Of a DNA stretch of 64,000 nt, positions 41,593 to 51,679 are shown in pieces. The notes under the pieces were generated by a model, which did not search any database, was not told the DNA's origin, and saw nothing but the letters and a program-made list of their open reading frames with translations. The stretch covers positions 559,920-623,919 of the forward strand of contig NZ_LFIJ01000002.1 of NCBI RefSeq assembly GCF_001187555.1. Reading direction: 5' to 3'. The stretch comes from Gilvimarinus polysaccharolyticus (GTDB lineage: Bacteria; Pseudomonadota; Gammaproteobacteria; Pseudomonadales; Cellvibrionaceae). Numbering within the stretch: position 1 is the first letter of the stretch; each line of letters starts with the position of its first letter. The position numbers were made by a program, and so were the translations under genes.

Positions 41593-41909
41593 GCGTTTTT
41601 TGTAGGGTTACTTATCCGTGCAGGCCATAATTTATGGCGCCAATTCATTTCGCCGTACCTTTAAATACAGCCGAGCATAAAAATGTACGGCTGTAAATCT
41701 TATGGCATTTGTAGTTCAACGGTAAATTTTCACTGACAAGCTCAGAAATCTATACAAAAGTAATAGCGTATATACCACAGTACTGTTGTGCTGTACCTCA
41801 CATAATAATCACTATAGTTTTAATATAAACAACCCATTACAATCTCTCTTAGTTTGAACTACGCCTAGAGCAAAATTGCTCTGCGACCTAATCACATCCG
41901 AGGAAACCC
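41593..41909. promoter_or_regulatory. Upstream region of the two-partner secretion genes
   Basis: A 317 bp spacer with no supported gene. It holds a 15 bp palindrome GCCATAATTTATGGC (41624-41638) and two mutually exclusive hairpins that share one arm (GTACGGCTGT, 41685-41694): with ACAGCCG (41667-41673) or with GCCGTAC (41652-41658). The palindrome may be an operator and the alternative stems a leader switch or the tlyA terminator; neither is proved. AT-rich sequence at 41800-41840 would suit a promoter. Confidence 0.45.
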
Positions 41910-44900
41910 ATGAACCACACCCTACCGTTGCTATGGAACCCAGCTACCCAGCATTATTGCCCCGCCCCTGCCGCCGCGCGCAATAAATCTAAAAGGGGCG
42001 GCCGTAGGTTAGCGTTAGCACTGGCCGTGGCAGCCGCTACTAACGGTGCCTACGCTGGCCCCTCGGGCGGTGTGGTAATTGATGGCGATGCCAATATTGA
42101 TATTCGCGGCAAGCTCACCGATATCCTACAAAACACCCAAAACACCACCATCGTTTGGGACAACTTTGATATTAACATTGATGAAATCGTTAATTTCATT
42201 CAGCCCAACGACACGGCCATCGCCTTAAACCGCGTCTTTAGTGCCGACGGCACCCAGATCAATGGCCAGCTTAACGCCAACGGTCGCGTCTTTGTATTGG
42301 ACGCCAACGGCGTACTGTTTGGCCAAGATGCCAGCGTCAATGTGGGCTCGTTGGTCGCCTCCACGTTGGATGTAACCCACACCGATTACACCCATTTTAG
42401 CTTTAGCGGCAACGGTAACCCTGCCGCGGTTACTAACTTAGGCCACATTAGTGTCGCCGACTCCGGCGCCGTTGCACTGTTGGGCGGCCAAGTGTCTAAC
42501 CGTGGTGTGATTCAGGCCAAGCTTGGCCGTGTAGCGCTGGCGGCAGGCAACAAAATCACCCTCGATTTTGCCGGCGACAACTTACTCAATGTACAGGTAG
42601 ATGAAGCCGCTCTAAATGCCTTGGCCGAAAACCACGGCCTGATACAAACCCCCGGCGGCCAAGTATTAATGACCGCCCACGCCAGTGATGCGTTGCTGCA
42701 AACCGTGGTCAACAACACAGGTGTAATAGAAGCGCAAAGTCTGCAAGAGCAAGATGGCAAAATTATGCTGCTTGGTGGCTTCAACGGCGGCACGGTTAAT
42801 GTCAGCGGCACGCTCGATGCCTCTGCCCCTAACAGCGGTAATGGCGGTTTTATAGAAACCTCTGGCGCCGTGGTGCAAGTAACCGCTAATGCCAACATCG
42901 ATGCCTCCAGCGCCAACGGCAGCGCCGGTACCTGGTTGCTCGACCCAACAGATTTGGATATCAGCTACGACGAAATGGGCGCAGACGATGGCGTCAGCCA
43001 CGTTCATACCCAAGCCCTGCAAAACTCACTGGCCGGCAGCAATGTCATATTACAAACCGCCGATGCTGGCGCCGGCAATGGCGATATCACCATTGCTGAC
43101 CCTATTATTTGGGCCAGCGCCAATACTTTAACGCTAGATGCCGATGGCGGCATTGTCTTTAACGATTATATTCAGGCACCTAACGGCGGCTTAAGCCTTA
43201 CCGCATTGGCCGACATTACTAGCGGCGCTGAGGGCCACATTAATGTGGCGGCCTTCACCTTAGAATCCGGTAACTTTAGCCAAATCATGGCGACCCTGCC
43301 GACGTTTATGGCTGACGACTTCACTCTAAACGGCGGCACCTTTACCCGTGCCACAGGTGGTAATGGCACCGGGTCACCACTACAAATTACCGATATTTTT
43401 GGCCTACAAGGGCTGGATACGACGCTCGGGTTTGATGCAATACTAACGAACGATATCGTTGCTAACGGCACCGTCGGTTGGAATGGTGGTGAAGGGTTTG
43501 ATCCAATCGGTGATGAGGTGAATGGCTACTCGGCTGACTTCAATGGCGGAGGTTATGTCATTGATGAGCTAACGATTAACCGGCCCAGTGAAGATGCTGT
43601 GGGCCTATTTGCCACTGCTTCGAACGCGGCATTGACAGATGTGGGCTTGACCAACGTTAACATTGTAGGTGAGGGCTATGTGGGTGGTCTGGTTGGTTAC
43701 GGTGCCGGTCAAATCACGGGCAGTTATGTTACAGGCGAGGTACAGGGACTGCATGATGTTGGTGGCTTAATGGGGCTTGCAGCCCCATCGAACGCCATAT
43801 CACAAAGCTATGCCAACGTTGCTGTAACTGGAGAGCATACTGTTGGTGGTTTAGTGGGCGGAGCAAATAGTCTTTCAGTTATCGATACCTACGCTACTGG
43901 TAGTGTAACGGCTACGGGCCCTGGCCCAGGTGGCAACGGAGGTCTCATTGGCCAGGCAAATACATCGACCATTGAAAACTCTTGGGCGAGTGGCTTGGTA
44001 TCAGTTGCGGTTGGGTTACCAGAAGGTGGCTTGGTGGGTAGAAACGGTGGAAGCACCTACACCAACAGTTACTGGGATACGTTTACTTCGGGCCAATCGT
44101 TTGGCGCTAATGGCAGCACACCGGTAGGCGTAAGCTCAGTGGATGGTGATTGGAGTGCTCCTGACGCCTATACTCAAACGTCCTATGCTGGTCTGGACTT
44201 CACCAACGACTGGTTTATCGCCGAAGGCAGCTCCCGCCCGATGCTGCGCGCTTTTTTAGACGGCGGCAATATTTCCAACCTCTACCAACTACAAGGCATG
44301 GCCGCTGACTTAGCGGGCAGCTATACCCTTAATCAAGATATCGACGCCTCGGCCACCGCTGCCAGCGTTGCACAGGGTGATCTCGGTAACTATTCGGATG
44401 TCTGGGGCGGGCGCGGCTTTGCGCCGGTGGGTAATGCAGCGGCTGACTTCACCGGCGACTTAGACGGCCAAGGCTTTGTGATTGAAGGCCTCACCATCAA
44501 CCGCTTGGATCAAAACTATGTCGGTTTGTTTGGTGCTACCTCCAACACGGCGAGCCTGACGGATATTGCTTTGGAGGGGGGCGAGATTACCGGCAGTAAT
44601 AATGTCGGTGCTCTGGTGGGCGACAACGGAGGTAGCATTGCCAGTAGCTACTCCACGGCTGCGGTAAACGGCGCTTTTACAGTTGGTGGTCTGGTAGGTT
44701 TTAATAGCGGTGTTATTGACTCTAGTTATGTCACAGGCGCGGTAACTGGCACAAACAGTAGCGCCGGTGGTTTGGTGGGTTATAACTCTTCTACCATTAC
44801 TGATAGTTATGCTACGGGCGCCGTGTCTGGCAACGAGTTGGTCGGTGGCCTTGTGGGTACTAATGCCTCCTCCATTACCGACAGCTATGCCACGGGTGCG

Positions 44901-47900
44901 GTAACCGGTACCACCAGTGTCGGTGGTCTTGTGGGTGTAGGTTTAGGTGGTGCCATTACTACCAGCTACTGGGATACGTTTACCACCGGTCAGGCCACTT
45001 CGGCTGGAGGCGGTACAGCTGTCAACGGCGACTGGAGTGGCGCAGAAACCGCCTACAGCGCTGGCAGCTATTCAGGCTTCGATTTTACCAACGATTGGTT
45101 TATCGCCGAAGGTAGCTCCCGGCCGATGCTGCGCGCGCACCTCTCTGGCGGCGGCGAAATCAATAACCTCTACGACCTGCAAGGTATGACCGCTGACTTA
45201 GCGGGCAGTTATACCCTAATGACCGATATCGACGCCTCGGCCACCGCCGATAGTGTTACTGCGGGCAACGGCGGCGATTACTCCGATGTATGGGGCGGGC
45301 GCGGCTTTGCCCCAGTGGGTGACACTACGACCCCATTTGCGGGTAATTTTGATGGGGCTAACAAAGTCATTTCACAATTAACTATTAATCGCTCAGATCA
45401 AGATTATGTAGGCCTTTTCGGTTTTTCCGTGGGGGCGACCATAGCCGATGTCGTTATTAGTTCTGCGGATGTGGTAGGTCGCCATTATACCGGTGTGCTC
45501 ACGGGGGGTATCGATGGTTCCACAAGCGAGGTCCTAGCTTCGGGCACGGTAAGTGGTCTGGAGTATGTCGGTGGCCTGATCGGCCAAGTTATTTCGGGTA
45601 ATCAACAAAATAACCGTTCTAATGTATCTGTGGAGGGTGTTAATGCAGTTGGTGGTTTAGTTGGTTTAAGTCTAGGAAGCATCACTGGTAGTTATGCAAT
45701 TGGTGATGTTCAGGGTGAAACTGATGTTGGCGGGTTAGTGGGGCGCAACATAGGGCCTGTTTCTAATAGTTATGCTACGGGCGATGTAACCGGAACCAAT
45801 ATAGGGGAAGATGTTGGTGGCTTAGTGGGCGCCAACTTTTCTCAAATTGAACAAAGTTACGCAACCGGTGCGGTAGTAGGGATAATGAATGTCGGTGGTT
45901 TAGTTGGCTTCAATGTAGACTCAATCGGCGACAGCTACTGGAACTCGGATGCTATAGCGATGGGGGTTGGTCAGAACATTGGTACCTCGAATGCCACCGG
46001 CCTCACCACTGCCGAGTTTATGGACCCAGCCTCTTTCGCGGCTTGGGGTGCAGATATAGATGCCGAAGGCGGCACAGGTTCTGTATGGCGTATTTACGAA
46101 GGCCAATCTACTCCGTTATTGCGCTCATTCCTAACCGAAATCGATGTGATCGCCTATGACGATTACAAAGTCTACGACGGCGTCGCCTACGATGGCCTGC
46201 ACGACATTAACGCCACCACCGGCGCGGGTGTGCGCTACGGCAACAGCTACGCTGAGTTTGTTGCAGCCTTTGGCGAAAATGGCACACCGTACGGATCGGA
46301 CGACATTAACAGCGCCGATTTAGAATACACCGGCGACTCGCAAGGCGCGATTGACGCCGGCACCTACGATATTACCCCCAGCCAGTTGTGGTCCAACCAA
46401 AGCGGTTACGACATTGTGATGAACGACGGTGTGCTCACCATCGATCAAGCCGTGGTCAGCGTTACCGTGAAGATCAACAACGCCAGTAAAGAGTACGGCG
46501 AAGCCGACCCCACCTTTAGCTGGGGAGTCACCTCGGGCTCTCTGGGTGCCGGCGACCGCTTAACCGGTCGTTTATCGCGCGCACCCGGTGAAAACGTGGG
46601 CAACTACGCCATTACCGGCAACGTCACCGGCGATTTAGCCAGCGGCAACTACGACGTCACCCTGATTAACGGCGTGTTTACCATTACCCCGCGCGCCATT
46701 ACCGTCAACATTGCCGACCTAGACAAAATCTATGGCGACGACGACCCAAGCTTTAGCTGGAGCATTACCGGTGGCAGCTTGGCTGCTGGCGAAACCTTAA
46801 ACGGCACCTTAACCCGCGTACCCGGCGAGAACGTTGGCGACTACGTGATTACCGGCGCGTTAGAGGGCGACTTGGCCAGCAGCAACTACACCGTCACCGT
46901 TGATGATGGCGTGTTGAGCATTGCCCCACGGCCACTGGTGATCAGCGCTGACGACTTTGCCAAAATCTATGGCCAAGACGACCCAGAGCTTACCTGGAGC
47001 CAAGGCGGCAGCGTGGTCGAGGGCGACACCCTAACCGTGAGCCTAAGCCGCAGCGAAGGCCAAAACGTGGGTTACTACACCATCACCCCAGAAGTAACCG
47101 GTGATGTCCTCAGCGACAACTACGCGCTTAGTATTAACAACGGCGCGCTGCAAATCACTCCCGCCGCACTGATGGTGACCGCCAACGACATCGAGACCTA
47201 CTGGAACCTGCTGCCACCGTTTAGCGCCACCTTAGACGGCCTAACCAACGGCGACACCGAGCAAGACGTGTTTGGTAACTCGCTGACCGTGACATCCGAC
47301 TTAAGCTTGCCGATACCGGGTGCATACACCTTAACGCCGATGGCAACACTGGCCAGCAGCAACTACACCGTTAGCTTTAACGACGGCGTGTTAAACCTGC
47401 TCAGCTCTAACCCCGGCGGTGGCTACGGCGATGGCTTAACCAGTACCCAACTGCCTGCACGGGAAGCACTGGGTCGCCAAGATCGCGCCAACCTCTTTGA
47501 AGGCCGCGATTTGCTGACCGGTGAGCTGGACGACATATCGCTTGGCGTATACCAAGACGGCGTGCGTGTGCCGGCGGCGGTTCTGGCCGAGTTTGGTCTA
47601 CCTATGCCGCGCGCGGTGTTGTTTGCCAACAACAGCGATACCGTCGAGCCCGAATACGTAGAGATGCTGGAAAAATTTGTGGCTAAGCTCGCGCAATATC
47701 CCGAGTTTAACCTCTTAGTAGAAGGCCACACCTCGCACACCGGTCCGCGCTTGCTCAACGAAAAGCTCGCCCGTAAACGCGCTATGGCGGTGTACAACAT
47801 ACTGGTCGAGTTGGGTGTAGAGCCTGCGCGACTGGGTACCAAAGGCTTTAGCTGGACGCGCCCGATTGCCGACAACAGCACCCTAGAGGGGCAAGCGTTA

Positions 47901-47960
47901 AACCGTCGTACCGAGATCACGCCGGATAAGCCCAGCGCCGATCAAGACGCCAGCGAGTAA
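41910..47960 (+). CDS. Two-partner secretion exoprotein (FhaB-like) with GLUG, YDG/MBG repeats and C-terminal OmpA-like domain
   Basis: A 2016-residue secreted adhesin-like protein. The N terminus is an extended signal peptide (WNPATQHY motif, basic block, hydrophobic core, likely cut after AYA near residue 50). A TPS haemagglutination domain follows (about 51-300: QNTTIVWDNFDI, NRVFSADGTQINGQL, NGVLFGQDA). Residues about 520-1400 carry many GLUG motifs (VGGLVG, SYATGAV) in three modules; two are nearly identical at about 885 bp spacing. A YDG-type region and three to four MBG repeats of about 78 residues follow (about 1410-1830). The last roughly 110 residues are OmpA-like: VLFANNSDTVEP (from 1903), GHTSHTG and LNRRTEI. 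The usual GHTD aspartate is Ser1942. The fusion suggests retention at the cell wall. TpsB follows 98 bases downstream. Confidence 0.92.
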   Translation: MNHTLPLLWNPATQHYCPAPAAARNKSKRGGRRLALALAVAAATNGAYAGPSGGVVIDGDANIDIRGKLTDILQNTQNTTIVWDNFDINIDEIVNFIQPNDTAIALNRVFSADGTQINGQLNANGRVFVLDANGVLFGQDASVNVGSLVASTLDVTHTDYTHFSFSGNGNPAAVTNLGHISVADSGAVALLGGQVSNRGVIQAKLGRVALAAGNKITLDFAGDNLLNVQVDEAALNALAENHGLIQTPGGQVLMTAHASDALLQTVVNNTGVIEAQSLQEQDGKIMLLGGFNGGTVNVSGTLDASAPNSGNGGFIETSGAVVQVTANANIDASSANGSAGTWLLDPTDLDISYDEMGADDGVSHVHTQALQNSLAGSNVILQTADAGAGNGDITIADPIIWASANTLTLDADGGIVFNDYIQAPNGGLSLTALADITSGAEGHINVAAFTLESGNFSQIMATLPTFMADDFTLNGGTFTRATGGNGTGSPLQITDIFGLQGLDTTLGFDAILTNDIVANGTVGWNGGEGFDPIGDEVNGYSADFNGGGYVIDELTINRPSEDAVGLFATASNAALTDVGLTNVNIVGEGYVGGLVGYGAGQITGSYVTGEVQGLHDVGGLMGLAAPSNAISQSYANVAVTGEHTVGGLVGGANSLSVIDTYATGSVTATGPGPGGNGGLIGQANTSTIENSWASGLVSVAVGLPEGGLVGRNGGSTYTNSYWDTFTSGQSFGANGSTPVGVSSVDGDWSAPDAYTQTSYAGLDFTNDWFIAEGSSRPMLRAFLDGGNISNLYQLQGMAADLAGSYTLNQDIDASATAASVAQGDLGNYSDVWGGRGFAPVGNAAADFTGDLDGQGFVIEGLTINRLDQNYVGLFGATSNTASLTDIALEGGEITGSNNVGALVGDNGGSIASSYSTAAVNGAFTVGGLVGFNSGVIDSSYVTGAVTGTNSSAGGLVGYNSSTITDSYATGAVSGNELVGGLVGTNASSITDSYATGAVTGTTSVGGLVGVGLGGAITTSYWDTFTTGQATSAGGGTAVNGDWSGAETAYSAGSYSGFDFTNDWFIAEGSSRPMLRAHLSGGGEINNLYDLQGMTADLAGSYTLMTDIDASATADSVTAGNGGDYSDVWGGRGFAPVGDTTTPFAGNFDGANKVISQLTINRSDQDYVGLFGFSVGATIADVVISSADVVGRHYTGVLTGGIDGSTSEVLASGTVSGLEYVGGLIGQVISGNQQNNRSNVSVEGVNAVGGLVGLSLGSITGSYAIGDVQGETDVGGLVGRNIGPVSNSYATGDVTGTNIGEDVGGLVGANFSQIEQSYATGAVVGIMNVGGLVGFNVDSIGDSYWNSDAIAMGVGQNIGTSNATGLTTAEFMDPASFAAWGADIDAEGGTGSVWRIYEGQSTPLLRSFLTEIDVIAYDDYKVYDGVAYDGLHDINATTGAGVRYGNSYAEFVAAFGENGTPYGSDDINSADLEYTGDSQGAIDAGTYDITPSQLWSNQSGYDIVMNDGVLTIDQAVVSVTVKINNASKEYGEADPTFSWGVTSGSLGAGDRLTGRLSRAPGENVGNYAITGNVTGDLASGNYDVTLINGVFTITPRAITVNIADLDKIYGDDDPSFSWSITGGSLAAGETLNGTLTRVPGENVGDYVITGALEGDLASSNYTVTVDDGVLSIAPRPLVISADDFAKIYGQDDPELTWSQGGSVVEGDTLTVSLSRSEGQNVGYYTITPEVTGDVLSDNYALSINNGALQITPAALMVTANDIETYWNLLPPFSATLDGLTNGDTEQDVFGNSLTVTSDLSLPIPGAYTLTPMATLASSNYTVSFNDGVLNLLSSNPGGGYGDGLTSTQLPAREALGRQDRANLFEGRDLLTGELDDISLGVYQDGVRVPAAVLAEFGLPMPRAVLFANNSDTVEPEYVEMLEKFVAKLAQYPEFNLLVEGHTSHTGPRLLNEKLARKRAMAVYNILVELGVEPARLGTKGFSWTRPIADNSTLEGQALNRRTEITPDKPSADQDASE
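44204..45330 (+). repeat. Large direct repeat (period about 885 bp) inside the exoprotein gene
   Basis: The block ending DWFIAEGSSRPMLRA, then NLYxLQGMxADLAGSYTL and YSDVWGGRGFAPVG occurs twice with nearly the same DNA: the first copy begins near 44204 and the second near 45089. Matching landmarks (TGGTTTATCG at 44211 and 45096, GCTGACTTAGCGGGCAG at 44304 and 45192) give offsets of 885 and 888 bp, in frame. This could expand or contract by recombination. Confidence 0.8.
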
Positions 47961-48058: not shown

Positions 48059-49720
48059 ATGAAGTTACCCCTTATATTGAAGCTAACGCCGCTGGCCGTG
48101 TTAATCCCCCACCTGGTGTTTGCCCAAGCCGTACCCAATGCCGGTACCTTTATTCGGCAGCTAGAAAACGAGCCCGGCGTACAGGCCGAGCCCAACAACG
48201 CCGATATCAGCCTGCCGCAACAACAAGCCCAACCCGCGCCCGCCGAAGGCGGCCCCAGCGTCTTGGTCAATGCCTTTGAAGTGACCGGCGCCGAGATCTT
48301 TACCGCCGATGAGCTCACCGCATTAGTGGCCGACCTTGCCGGTAAAACCCTCACCTTGGGTGAACTGCAAGAAGCCAGCAACCGCATTACCCGCTACTAC
48401 CGCGAGCGCGGCTTCTTTTTAACGCGCGCCTACTTGCCGCAACAAGATGTAAACGACGGCGTTGTCACCATCGACGTGCTTGAAGGTCGGTTGGGTAAAG
48501 TCGCCTTAAACAACGACGCCCATACCCGCGACTTCGTGCTCAAGCGTCCGTTCCGCGCATTAAACGCCAACCAAATGCTCAGCGCCTCCGACCTAGAAAC
48601 CCCGCTGCTGCGCTTGTCGGACTTGCCTGGCATAGATGTCACCACCACCCTCGTACCCGGTGAAGAAGTTGGCACCAGTGACCTGCAAGTGGATGTTAGC
48701 CAAGGCCCATGGGTCAACGGCACCGTCGAGCTCGACAATTACGGCAACGAATCCACCGGTGAATACCGCCTAGGCGCCAGCGTGCAAGTCAACAGCCCAT
48801 TAGGCTTAGGCGACCGCTTTGATCTGAGAGCCCTTGGCTCCGATGAAGAACAAGTGTTCTTCCGCGCCCAATACCAACTGCCCGTTGGCCCTTGGGCCAC
48901 CGAGCTGGGTGTGGCTTACTCCGACATGGACTACACCTTGGGCGGCAACTTTGACGAGCTAGACGCCACCGGTAATGCGCGCATTACCACCGCGTTTGTA
49001 AAACAATCGTTAATCCGTACCCGCAGCGCCAACCTAAACGTGCAGCTGCAGTACGACAGCAAAGAGCTCGAAGACAAAATTGGTGCCTTTGCCAGCCACA
49101 GCGACAAAGACTCTGAGCTGTACACCCTAAGCATCAATGGCGATTGGCGCGACCAGTGGTTGGGTGGTGGTATCACCCAAGCCTCGCTGGCCTATACCAA
49201 AGGCGAGCTAAACATCAACAGCTACCTCGACCAAGTCATCGACACCGTGACCGCACAAACCGCGGGTGACTTTGAGCGCTGGACCCCCTCGCTGATGCGT
49301 TTGCAAAACCTCGGCGGTAACTGGAGCCTACACGCGCAAATCCACGGCCAGTTTGCCGATAAAAACCTCGACTCGTCCGAGAAATTTAGCCTAGGCGGCG
49401 CCTACGGTGTACGCGCTTACGCCCAAGGCGAAGCCAGCGGCGATGAAGGCTACCTGGCCAACGTCGAAGTGCGCTACGACCTAAACAGCCAGTGGCAAGC
49501 GTTTGCACTGCTCGATCACGGTCAAGTCGACATCAACAAAAGCCCGTGGGACGCCAGCGTCGACAACAGCCGCAGCTTAACGGGAGCGGGTATTGGGGCG
49601 CGTTACAACAACCGCGCGTGGAGCGCCAGCGCCACAGCCGCCGCACCTATCGGCAGTGAAGATATCCACGGCGATGACGACGATGTGCGTTTGTTTGCGC
49701 GGGTAGCGTGGAAGTTTTAA
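48059..49720 (+). CDS. Two-partner secretion outer-membrane transporter (ShlB/FhaC/HecB family)
   Basis: TpsB pore that exports the exoprotein encoded just upstream. The 553-residue protein has a signal peptide (residues 1-22, VFAQA), a proline-rich spacer, a POTRA region (about 60-145: VNAFEVTGAEIFTADEL, RYYRERGFFLTRAYLPQQDV), the ShlB-type POTRA2 and a beta-barrel to the terminal VAWKF. The signature GGAYGVRAYAQGEASGDEGY is at about 440-460. It belongs to the same operon as the exoprotein, order tpsA then tpsB. Start ATG 48059 with GGAGAGGAA upstream. Confidence 0.95.
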   Translation: MKLPLILKLTPLAVLIPHLVFAQAVPNAGTFIRQLENEPGVQAEPNNADISLPQQQAQPAPAEGGPSVLVNAFEVTGAEIFTADELTALVADLAGKTLTLGELQEASNRITRYYRERGFFLTRAYLPQQDVNDGVVTIDVLEGRLGKVALNNDAHTRDFVLKRPFRALNANQMLSASDLETPLLRLSDLPGIDVTTTLVPGEEVGTSDLQVDVSQGPWVNGTVELDNYGNESTGEYRLGASVQVNSPLGLGDRFDLRALGSDEEQVFFRAQYQLPVGPWATELGVAYSDMDYTLGGNFDELDATGNARITTAFVKQSLIRTRSANLNVQLQYDSKELEDKIGAFASHSDKDSELYTLSINGDWRDQWLGGGITQASLAYTKGELNINSYLDQVIDTVTAQTAGDFERWTPSLMRLQNLGGNWSLHAQIHGQFADKNLDSSEKFSLGGAYGVRAYAQGEASGDEGYLANVEVRYDLNSQWQAFALLDHGQVDINKSPWDASVDNSRSLTGAGIGARYNNRAWSASATAAAPIGSEDIHGDDDDVRLFARVAWKF

Positions 49721-50143: not shown

Positions 50144-51679
50144 GTGAAAAATTTATCTCTTAAGTGGAAGATCCTACTTAGTGTCACCCTAACCTGCGTC
50201 GCCGCTGTATTGGTGACTACCTTTGTTACCGTTCGCTCGGGTATTAGCACGGTAGAGGAAACAATTGTTAATGACACCCGCACCCTTGCCCAAGTATTGG
50301 GCGAAGCGAGCGTAGGTGCCATAACCTTTGATGACGATATGACGGTTAGCGCCTCGTTAAACGCGCTGAATGTCAGTCAGCGCGTATTAGGTGCGGTGGT
50401 TTATACCAACGGTGAGCCTTTTGCTTGGTTCTCCCGCGCCGCCGAGGGAAAAATGCCCGCCGGCTTGCCCAATAGGCCCAATGCTGAGGGTGTGGTTGAG
50501 ATCGAAGGTGGTTTAATTATTACCGAAGCGATTAAATCCGACGGCGCTAAGGTTGGCATGATCTCTTTTCAGGTAAATCTTGACGAGCTTAAGGCGGTAG
50601 TTAACAGCGCTATTAAGGATGCCATTTGGTTGGTGATTGTGATCAGTGCAGTAGCCGCAGGTTTGGCTTACTTAGTACAGGCGGGTGTGGTTAAGCCGGT
50701 CAACAACGTTGTACGAGCACTGCGTGATATCTCGGAAGGTGAAGGCGATTTAACCCGTCGTTTACCCGTAGAGGGCACGGATGAGATCAGCGAACTGGCG
50801 GCTTGCTTTAACCGTTTTGTTGAGCGTCTGCAAAGCATTATTGGCAATGTTGCAGAAACAGCTGCCGAGGTCGACGAAAGTGCCAACATCTTGTCGCAGT
50901 TATCGCAAGAGAACGAGCGCTCTATTACCTCGCAGCAATCGGATATCCAACAGATCGTTACTGCGATCAAAGAAATGGCCAGCGTAGTGGCCGATGTTAC
51001 TCAGCGGGTTGCCGAAACCGCCGATAACTCGCTGCAAGCCGATAAAGTCGCCATGGGCGGCAAAGAGATCGTGCACGACACCATGAGCCAGATTCAAAGC
51101 TTATCGACCGATATTAAAACCGCCTCGGAAGTGATTGATCGCTTGCGCCAGGAAACGGTTGCTATTGGTACGGTGTTGGATGTGATTCGCGGCATTGCCG
51201 AGCAAACTAACTTGCTGGCCCTAAACGCTGCGATTGAAGCTGCTCGTGCTGGTGAACAAGGTCGCGGCTTTGCTGTGGTAGCCGATGAAGTGCGTACCCT
51301 CGCCTCGCGCACGCAAAGCTCTACCACCGAAATTCAAGAAATGATCGAGCGTTTGCAAACCGGTTCAGCCAAAGCGGTAGAGATGATGACCGCCGGTACG
51401 ACTCAGGCCGACGCCTCGGTAAGCCGGGCTAATGAAGCCACCGAAGCCCTAGAAGACATAACCCGTTTTGTGGGTGAGATTCGTGATCGCACTAATCAAA
51501 TTGCTGCGGCCTCGGAGCAACAAAGCGCTGCAACACAACAAATTGAGGTTAATATCGATAGCGTATCGGGTGTGGCAATTAGCACCGCTGAAAGCTCCAG
51601 CCGTATTACCGCCAACAGTGTTAATTTGGCGGAAATGGCTAAGCAAATGTCTGGTCTGGTTGGGCGATTTAAAATCTGA
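50144..51679 (+). CDS. Methyl-accepting chemotaxis protein (CHASE8-like sensor, HAMP, MCP signal)
   Basis: A 511-residue chemoreceptor starting at GTG 50144 with CCGAGGG upstream. TM1 (about 10-30), a small periplasmic sensor of about 125 residues ([34 protein letters not shown]) resembling a CHASE8 domain, TM2 (about 163-185), HAMP (about 187-240) and a long coiled-coil signalling domain. The hairpin tip is [20 protein letters not shown] then [18 protein letters not shown]. It would signal to CheA/CheW encoded elsewhere. There is no C-terminal pentapeptide for CheR tethering. Confidence 0.95.

Follow-up and report, generated by a model that had tools for sequence, protein, structure and literature searches.

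An OmpA-like C-terminal domain in a two-partner secretion exoprotein of Gilvimarinus polysaccharolyticus: a candidate periplasmic anchor

Intimin/invasin-type proteins are surface adhesins with a periplasmic peptidoglycan-binding domain; they are inverse autotransporters, single proteins carrying this domain at the N-terminus, unlike the fusion reported here, in which a two-partner secretion (TPS) exoprotein ends in an OmpA-like domain. The gene in question, tpsA, lies in a stretch of 64,000 nucleotides of the Gilvimarinus polysaccharolyticus genome (contig NZ_LFIJ01000002.1, positions 559,920 to 623,919; called the window below), and is followed after 98 bp by tpsB, the gene of a putative outer-membrane transporter (Table 1). 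In the consulted parts of two reviews, one on TPS systems (PMC5422565) and one on adhesin architecture (PMC7616799), the anchors named for TPS adhesins are disulfide hooks. In HMW1 and HxuA a disulfide-bonded C-terminal anchor locks the exoprotein (TpsA) in the pore of its transporter (TpsB), and the C-terminus is expected to stay in the periplasm (PMC5422565). In Pseudomonas aeruginosa the TPS adhesin CdrA, which carries MBG2-type repeats, is retained in CdrB through a cysteine hook at its C-terminus (PMC7616799). The term OmpA was absent from both reviews, and no OmpA-ended TPS protein was described in the literature that we searched (titles, openings of abstracts and selected passages, mostly from non-subscription journals).

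The domain order of the tpsA product was established by profile searches. An earlier note on this DNA, made from its letters only, had claimed a TPS domain, GLUG and MBG repeats and an OmpA-like end, and all of these were matched in Pfam above the curated cut-offs: besides the TPS domain, Glug (E 1.6e-21, four stretches), MBG_2 (E 4.7e-45, four stretches) and OmpA (PF00691, E 1.2e-16). Absence of a significant OmpA match, named in that note as grounds for abandoning the idea, did not occur (61.2 bits against a cut-off of 27.2), and the short motifs quoted there for the OmpA end were all found. YDG repeats, listed among the same profiles, gave no match at E <= 0.01, the repeats being MBG_2; ESPR stayed under its Pfam cut-off. 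In NCBIfam, TIGR01901 (filamentous hemagglutinin N-terminal domain) passed its cut-off (63.8 against 29.1 bits), and OmpA-type models aligned within residues 1894-2012, all under their whole-protein cut-offs (best 25 of 36 rows). With its N-terminal TPS domain and linked TpsB, the protein would be classified as a type Vb exoprotein; judged from its domains, it is a TPS adhesin whose C-terminal module is unusual.

This architecture recurs among relatives. Searches with the C-terminal region detected strong relatives (E <= 1.1e-42) in seven of 144 genomes of the family, namely six of the eight of the genus Gilvimarinus (that of the window and five others) and one of another genus (G017); the next match, among the family matches listed, was at E 6.3e-20. 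These genomes carry seven complete genes, two of them in G. polysaccharolyticus itself, plus a C-terminal fragment that lies at the end of a contig (L050 of G047). The same domain order was found with Pfam at L017, L053 and L054, and alignment together with a hidden Markov model (HMM) showed that L049, L051 and L052 end in OmpA. Because the fusion recurs in seven genomes, chance or an assembly artefact was rejected as its source. How often the OmpA end co-occurs with a linked TpsB had been raised in the earlier note as a check, and a TpsB gene adjoins tpsA at all eight OmpA-ended loci. Pairwise identity among the TpsB proteins, including those of G047 and of an OmpA-less homologue in G042 (see below), is 57-100%. 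In the OmpA region the ratio of nonsynonymous to synonymous substitution rates (dN/dS) was 0.09-0.14 in the computable within-genus pairs and up to 0.30 in pairs with G017, dS being often saturated elsewhere; where computable, the estimates indicate purifying selection on the fused domain.

Outside this group the fusion appears to be uncommon. Scanning of genome contigs with a C-terminal profile revealed four loci, all in Gilvimarinus (G. gilvus, G. chinensis, G. algae and Gilvimarinus sp. 2_MG-2023), and a viral scan yielded no relative. Beyond the genome of the window, no match to the seven-row C-terminal profile (A1) was found at E <= 1e-32 in 369 genomes of the class and 398 of the phylum, with at most eight first-look candidates scored per genome and at a threshold too strict to pick up fusions having another linker. 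A search of the order (390 genomes) at E <= 1e-18 was swamped by ordinary OmpA proteins, and among the matches listed the only frames longer than 1000 residues were the two copies from the genome of the window. A tblastn search of plasmids matched 621 records, all below 60% identity. Wide distribution of the fusion was thus not found in the class, phylum, order, contig and viral searches, within their thresholds; independent fusions outside the genomes matched here are possible. As a separate observation, a 1745-residue open reading frame (ORF) of G058 (L055:2424-7661) has an OmpA-like end with the usual GHTD; the three TPS matches of G058 are all on contigs other than that of L055.

Rarity was also apparent from the side of the exoproteins. 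With an HMM made from 47 plain OmpA rows, the fused domains being left out, none of 140 other TpsA ends was matched at E <= 10, and all six positive controls were matched at E < 1e-28. The ends (up to 1.5 kb) came from 80 TPS ORFs of the family and 60 of the phylum sample (12 of the latter from the same order); they were hand-picked from the rows listed rather than comprising all TPS genes, some are near-identical to each other (e.g. L169 and L172), 14 (11 and 3) have no stop within the retrieved stretch, and a few hold unknown residues. The OmpA end is therefore rare among TpsA proteins in the samples examined. A 1.9-Mb single-contig genome of the same class has a TPS domain (G567:C1:290030-290788) whose open frame extends over 29,206 residues.

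Which residues the fused domain has kept bears on what it may bind. By sequence, the solved chain nearest to it is the OmpA-like domain of Acinetobacter baumannii OmpA (AbOmpA, Omp38; 3td3, E 1.2e-24), in which D271 and R286 were reported, in the part of the study consulted, to be critical for diaminopimelate binding, with D271A and R286A proteins tested (PMC6572160). These residues align to S1942 and R1957 of the tpsA product, at a spacing of 15 in both proteins. The tpsA protein thus resembles AbOmpA in the kept arginine and differs from it in the serine and in what the domain is attached to, a TPS exoprotein rather than an OmpA barrel. The motif GHTSHTG of the exoprotein contains the serine where most OmpA domains have aspartate, and serine is invariant at this column in the seven rows of A1. 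Among 52 distinct plain OmpA rows, taken from the loci at hand, the column holds 47 Asp, 4 Ser and 1 Ala; the equivalent of R286 and the motif asparagine are invariant in all 59 rows (52 plain and 7 fused). The four plain domains with serine all belong to one genus (g87), in open frames of 406-449 residues, and they refute, together with the one bearing alanine, the idea that serine is exclusive to fused domains. An earlier count by regular expression (26 D and 8 S, all 8 fused) was too favourable compared with the column counts. A column at the domain start gave no clean split (fused: 4 Pro, 3 Ala; plain: 22 Ala, 19 Asp and others). The change from Asp to Ser is, as judged by these alignments, systematic in fused domains and not unique to them. 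The OmpA domain evidently belongs to the sequence family, but we withhold the label of peptidoglycan binding, because the aspartate of the Asp/Arg pair is serine in seven of seven fused domains, the arginine being kept in all seven. Serine may nevertheless be tolerated by the fold, since the Arg and Asn are invariant and the four plain domains of one genus carry it too. The consistent serine at a mostly aspartate column raises the question whether an OmpA fold may anchor without the reported diaminopimelate contact.

Structural comparison adds little to this, and the OmpA assignment is carried by the sequence evidence. The AlphaFold2 model of the last 200 residues, built from a five-row input, had a mean predicted local distance difference test score of 55.4 and a predicted template modelling score of 0.53. 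Used in Foldseek, this low-confidence model retrieved OmpA-like structures (best E 9.5e-6), including 3td5, which contains a diaminopimelate-containing peptide; among the matches listed, the template modelling score by query length did not exceed 0.38, and the root-mean-square deviation was mostly above 10.

None of the seven complete fused TpsA proteins contains cysteine after residue 31, and therefore a disulfide anchor of the CdrA or HMW1 kind is not available to them. The window protein has a single cysteine, at residue 17, and no C-terminal hook. It resembles CdrA, also a TPS adhesin, in size, in its MBG2-type repeats and, if our reading is right, in having its C-terminus retained at the transporter (PMC7616799, consulted in part), and differs from it in that CdrA has a cysteine hook. 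As in HMW1 and HxuA, the C-terminal segment of which is expected to be periplasmic and locks the exoprotein in TpsB (PMC5422565, consulted in part), retention is proposed here; in their case the anchor consists of a loop made by a disulfide, where the present protein has a folded OmpA domain. Among 69 complete ends of the family, a script flagged 16 with a cysteine pair in the last 100 residues, and 12 of these looked hook-like by eye (the other four being L101, L114, L132 and L164); four of 57 complete phylum ends were flagged, none hook-like by eye. By position, the OmpA domain appears to occupy the place of the hook-like anchor found in other TpsA ends of the family. In the hook-like ends (L112, L115, L120, L121, L127, L133-L136, L140, L149 and L157) the cysteine pair is followed, by eye, by a conserved hydrophobic segment. 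A DPAIFT-like pattern is present in 23 of the 69 family ends, many with an acidic finish (e.g. L138, L141, L143 and L153), and the tails of L132 and L164, placed by the script in the cysteine-pair class, are similar to it.

Three TPS genes are present in the genome of G. polysaccharolyticus. The third (L018) encodes a protein of 5797 residues with TpsB upstream and an end lacking OmpA, and the second forms another OmpA-ended tpsA-tpsB pair (L017:7641-15301, contig 1). Nucleotide identity between the window and L017, in 250-base bins, is 99.6-100% over 46.5-49.5 kb (last repeats, linker, OmpA and most of tpsB), 77-98% over 42.0-43.5 kb (TPS region), 55-78% over 43.5-46.0 kb (GLUG region), and about 47-56% outside the pair; the two TpsB proteins are identical. 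Most simply, two distinct loci would share the anchor and TpsB sequence through gene conversion.

The reading that we consider best supported by these comparisons, at a probability of about 0.57, is periplasmic retention of the adhesin by its OmpA end behind TpsB, that is, a CdrA-like two-partner adhesin with another C-terminal module. The N-terminal TPS domain would initiate export through TpsB and the GLUG/MBG region would be carried to the outside, while the C-terminal OmpA domain would fold in the periplasm and stay unexported. The folded domain would halt transit and leave the adhesin threaded through TpsB; it would act as a plug regardless, and might in addition touch peptidoglycan through a pocket in which the arginine is kept and serine stands for aspartate. 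The earlier note had proposed that such an end stays in the periplasm and grips peptidoglycan, thereby anchoring the adhesin through the pore. Its retention part is favoured by the recurrent domain order with TpsB at every locus, by the purifying selection and by the lack of late cysteines. Its peptidoglycan grip is partly supported and is left open because of the substitution at one of the two positions reported for binding.

Several observations weigh against this reading. Serine at the D271 column in every distinct fused domain speaks against the grip, and the confidence of the C-terminal model is low. The need for the domain is put in doubt by a Gilvimarinus homologue (G042, L090), which stops about where OmpA would begin and still has TpsB. 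Its TPS domain lies in an open frame of 1890 residues, with the tpsB start three bases past the stop; it has eight MBG_2 stretches and no OmpA in Pfam (in the part scanned, from an internal ATG), was not matched by the plain-OmpA HMM, and contains no cysteine in its last 450 residues. The neighbouring ORFs are like those of the second locus, where it apparently resides. Since its TpsB is the closest to that of the window among other genomes (81.9%), loss of the OmpA domain in G042 is favoured. Separately, a short TPS match in G044 (L093, G044:C1:923988-924365; 176-residue frame), apparently also at the second locus, is perhaps a decayed copy. Six further non-control MBG-ended TpsA proteins (L107, L218, L221, L222, L226 and L230) have neither a cysteine pair nor OmpA, and a stricter script pattern keeps four hook ends, not 12. 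MBG-type TpsA proteins thus seem able to do without either module, and for this reason replacement of the hook by OmpA is only an analogy. The idea that the linker is the ordinary C-terminus of MBG-type TpsA proteins was weakly supported and not adopted: a regular expression, written after the ends had been viewed, gave four hits, where shuffling gave 0.755 on average and at most 3, and the best non-control match of a linker HMM, in which G042 is a row and matches by construction, was at E 0.058.

It is quite possible that the domain is a plug and nothing else, an OmpA fold which has lost peptidoglycan binding through the change of Asp to Ser and is simply unable, once folded, to pass through TpsB; such a plug amounts to retention without peptidoglycan binding. 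The serine in all fused domains, at a position reported as critical together with R286 in AbOmpA (PMC6572160, consulted in part), points in this direction, but the arginine and asparagine are invariant, and the four plain domains of one genus also have serine. A more ambitious version of retention, possible but somewhat doubtful, would make the OmpA module with its retuned serine site a further kind of TPS anchor, combining the hold in TpsB with a tie to peptidoglycan; conversion would keep module and TpsB near-identical, so that different heads share one anchor and pore. Export of the OmpA domain, with display outside and binding of peptidoglycan fragments, other cells or polysaccharide, is unlikely in our opinion. 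Export to the surface is the general rule for TPS exoproteins, and an altered site could mean an altered ligand; however, the C-terminal end is expected to exit last, the domain resembles those working in the periplasm, and the C-terminus of HMW1 and HxuA is expected to be periplasmic (PMC5422565, in the part consulted). C-terminal OmpA domains of some PVC-delivered proteins were suggested to be toxin tips (PMC3482391, likewise consulted in part), and the position of the domain in TpsA would fit a polymorphic toxin. This seems very improbable here: the closeness of tpsB leaves no space for an immunity gene directly downstream, and a conserved end with a variable middle is the reverse of the order in polymorphic toxins of type Vb. 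As to periplasmic retention, a natural set of OmpA-ended proteins, the OmpA-less homologue and two copies whose heads differ while anchor and pore are near-identical would open the question of anchoring to direct tests.

Table 1. Positions of tpsA, its domains and site residues, and tpsB in the window
Feature	Position	Strand	Basis
tpsA, 2016-residue TPS exoprotein (TPS - GLUG - MBG_2 - linker - OmpA)	41910..47960	+	ORF and Pfam
TPS secretion domain PF05860, residues 63-295	42096..42794	+	Pfam, E 1.1e-27, 98 bits against cut-off 33.5
Best GLUG motif, residues 974-999, in middle region strongly unlike paralogue	44829..44906	+	Pfam and paralogue comparison
Best MBG_2 repeat, residues 1518-1591	46461..46682	+	Pfam
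Conserved linker, residues about 1831-1903	47400..47618	+	Alignment; a similar stretch is the end of the OmpA-less homologue G042
OmpA-like domain PF00691, residues 1904-1999	47619..47906	+	Pfam and 3td3 match
Codon of Ser1942, aligned to AbOmpA D271	47733..47735	+	3td3 alignment, column counts
Codon of Arg1957, aligned to AbOmpA R286, conserved	47778..47780	+	3td3 alignment, column counts
tpsB, 553-residue outer-membrane transporter (POTRA_2 70-143, ShlB 205-515)	48059..49720	+	Pfam

Some features of the neighbourhood may be added. A small ORF, apparently of a lipoprotein, lies directly upstream of tpsA in five relatives (L049:13751-14311, L051:13801-14358, L052:5425-6015, L053:12983-13552 and L091:1064-1693); the L049 copy, the sole one scanned, scored 31.9 bits for DUF4136, slightly under the cut-off of 32.8. 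In the window, the interval upstream of tpsA (41593-41909) offers too little space for such an ORF. Downstream of tpsB, Pfam detected a chemotaxis receptor (CHASE8, HAMP, MCPsignal) at 50144-51679, and a receptor-like ORF, judged by appearance, is also found near tpsA-tpsB in L049, L051, L052 and L053.

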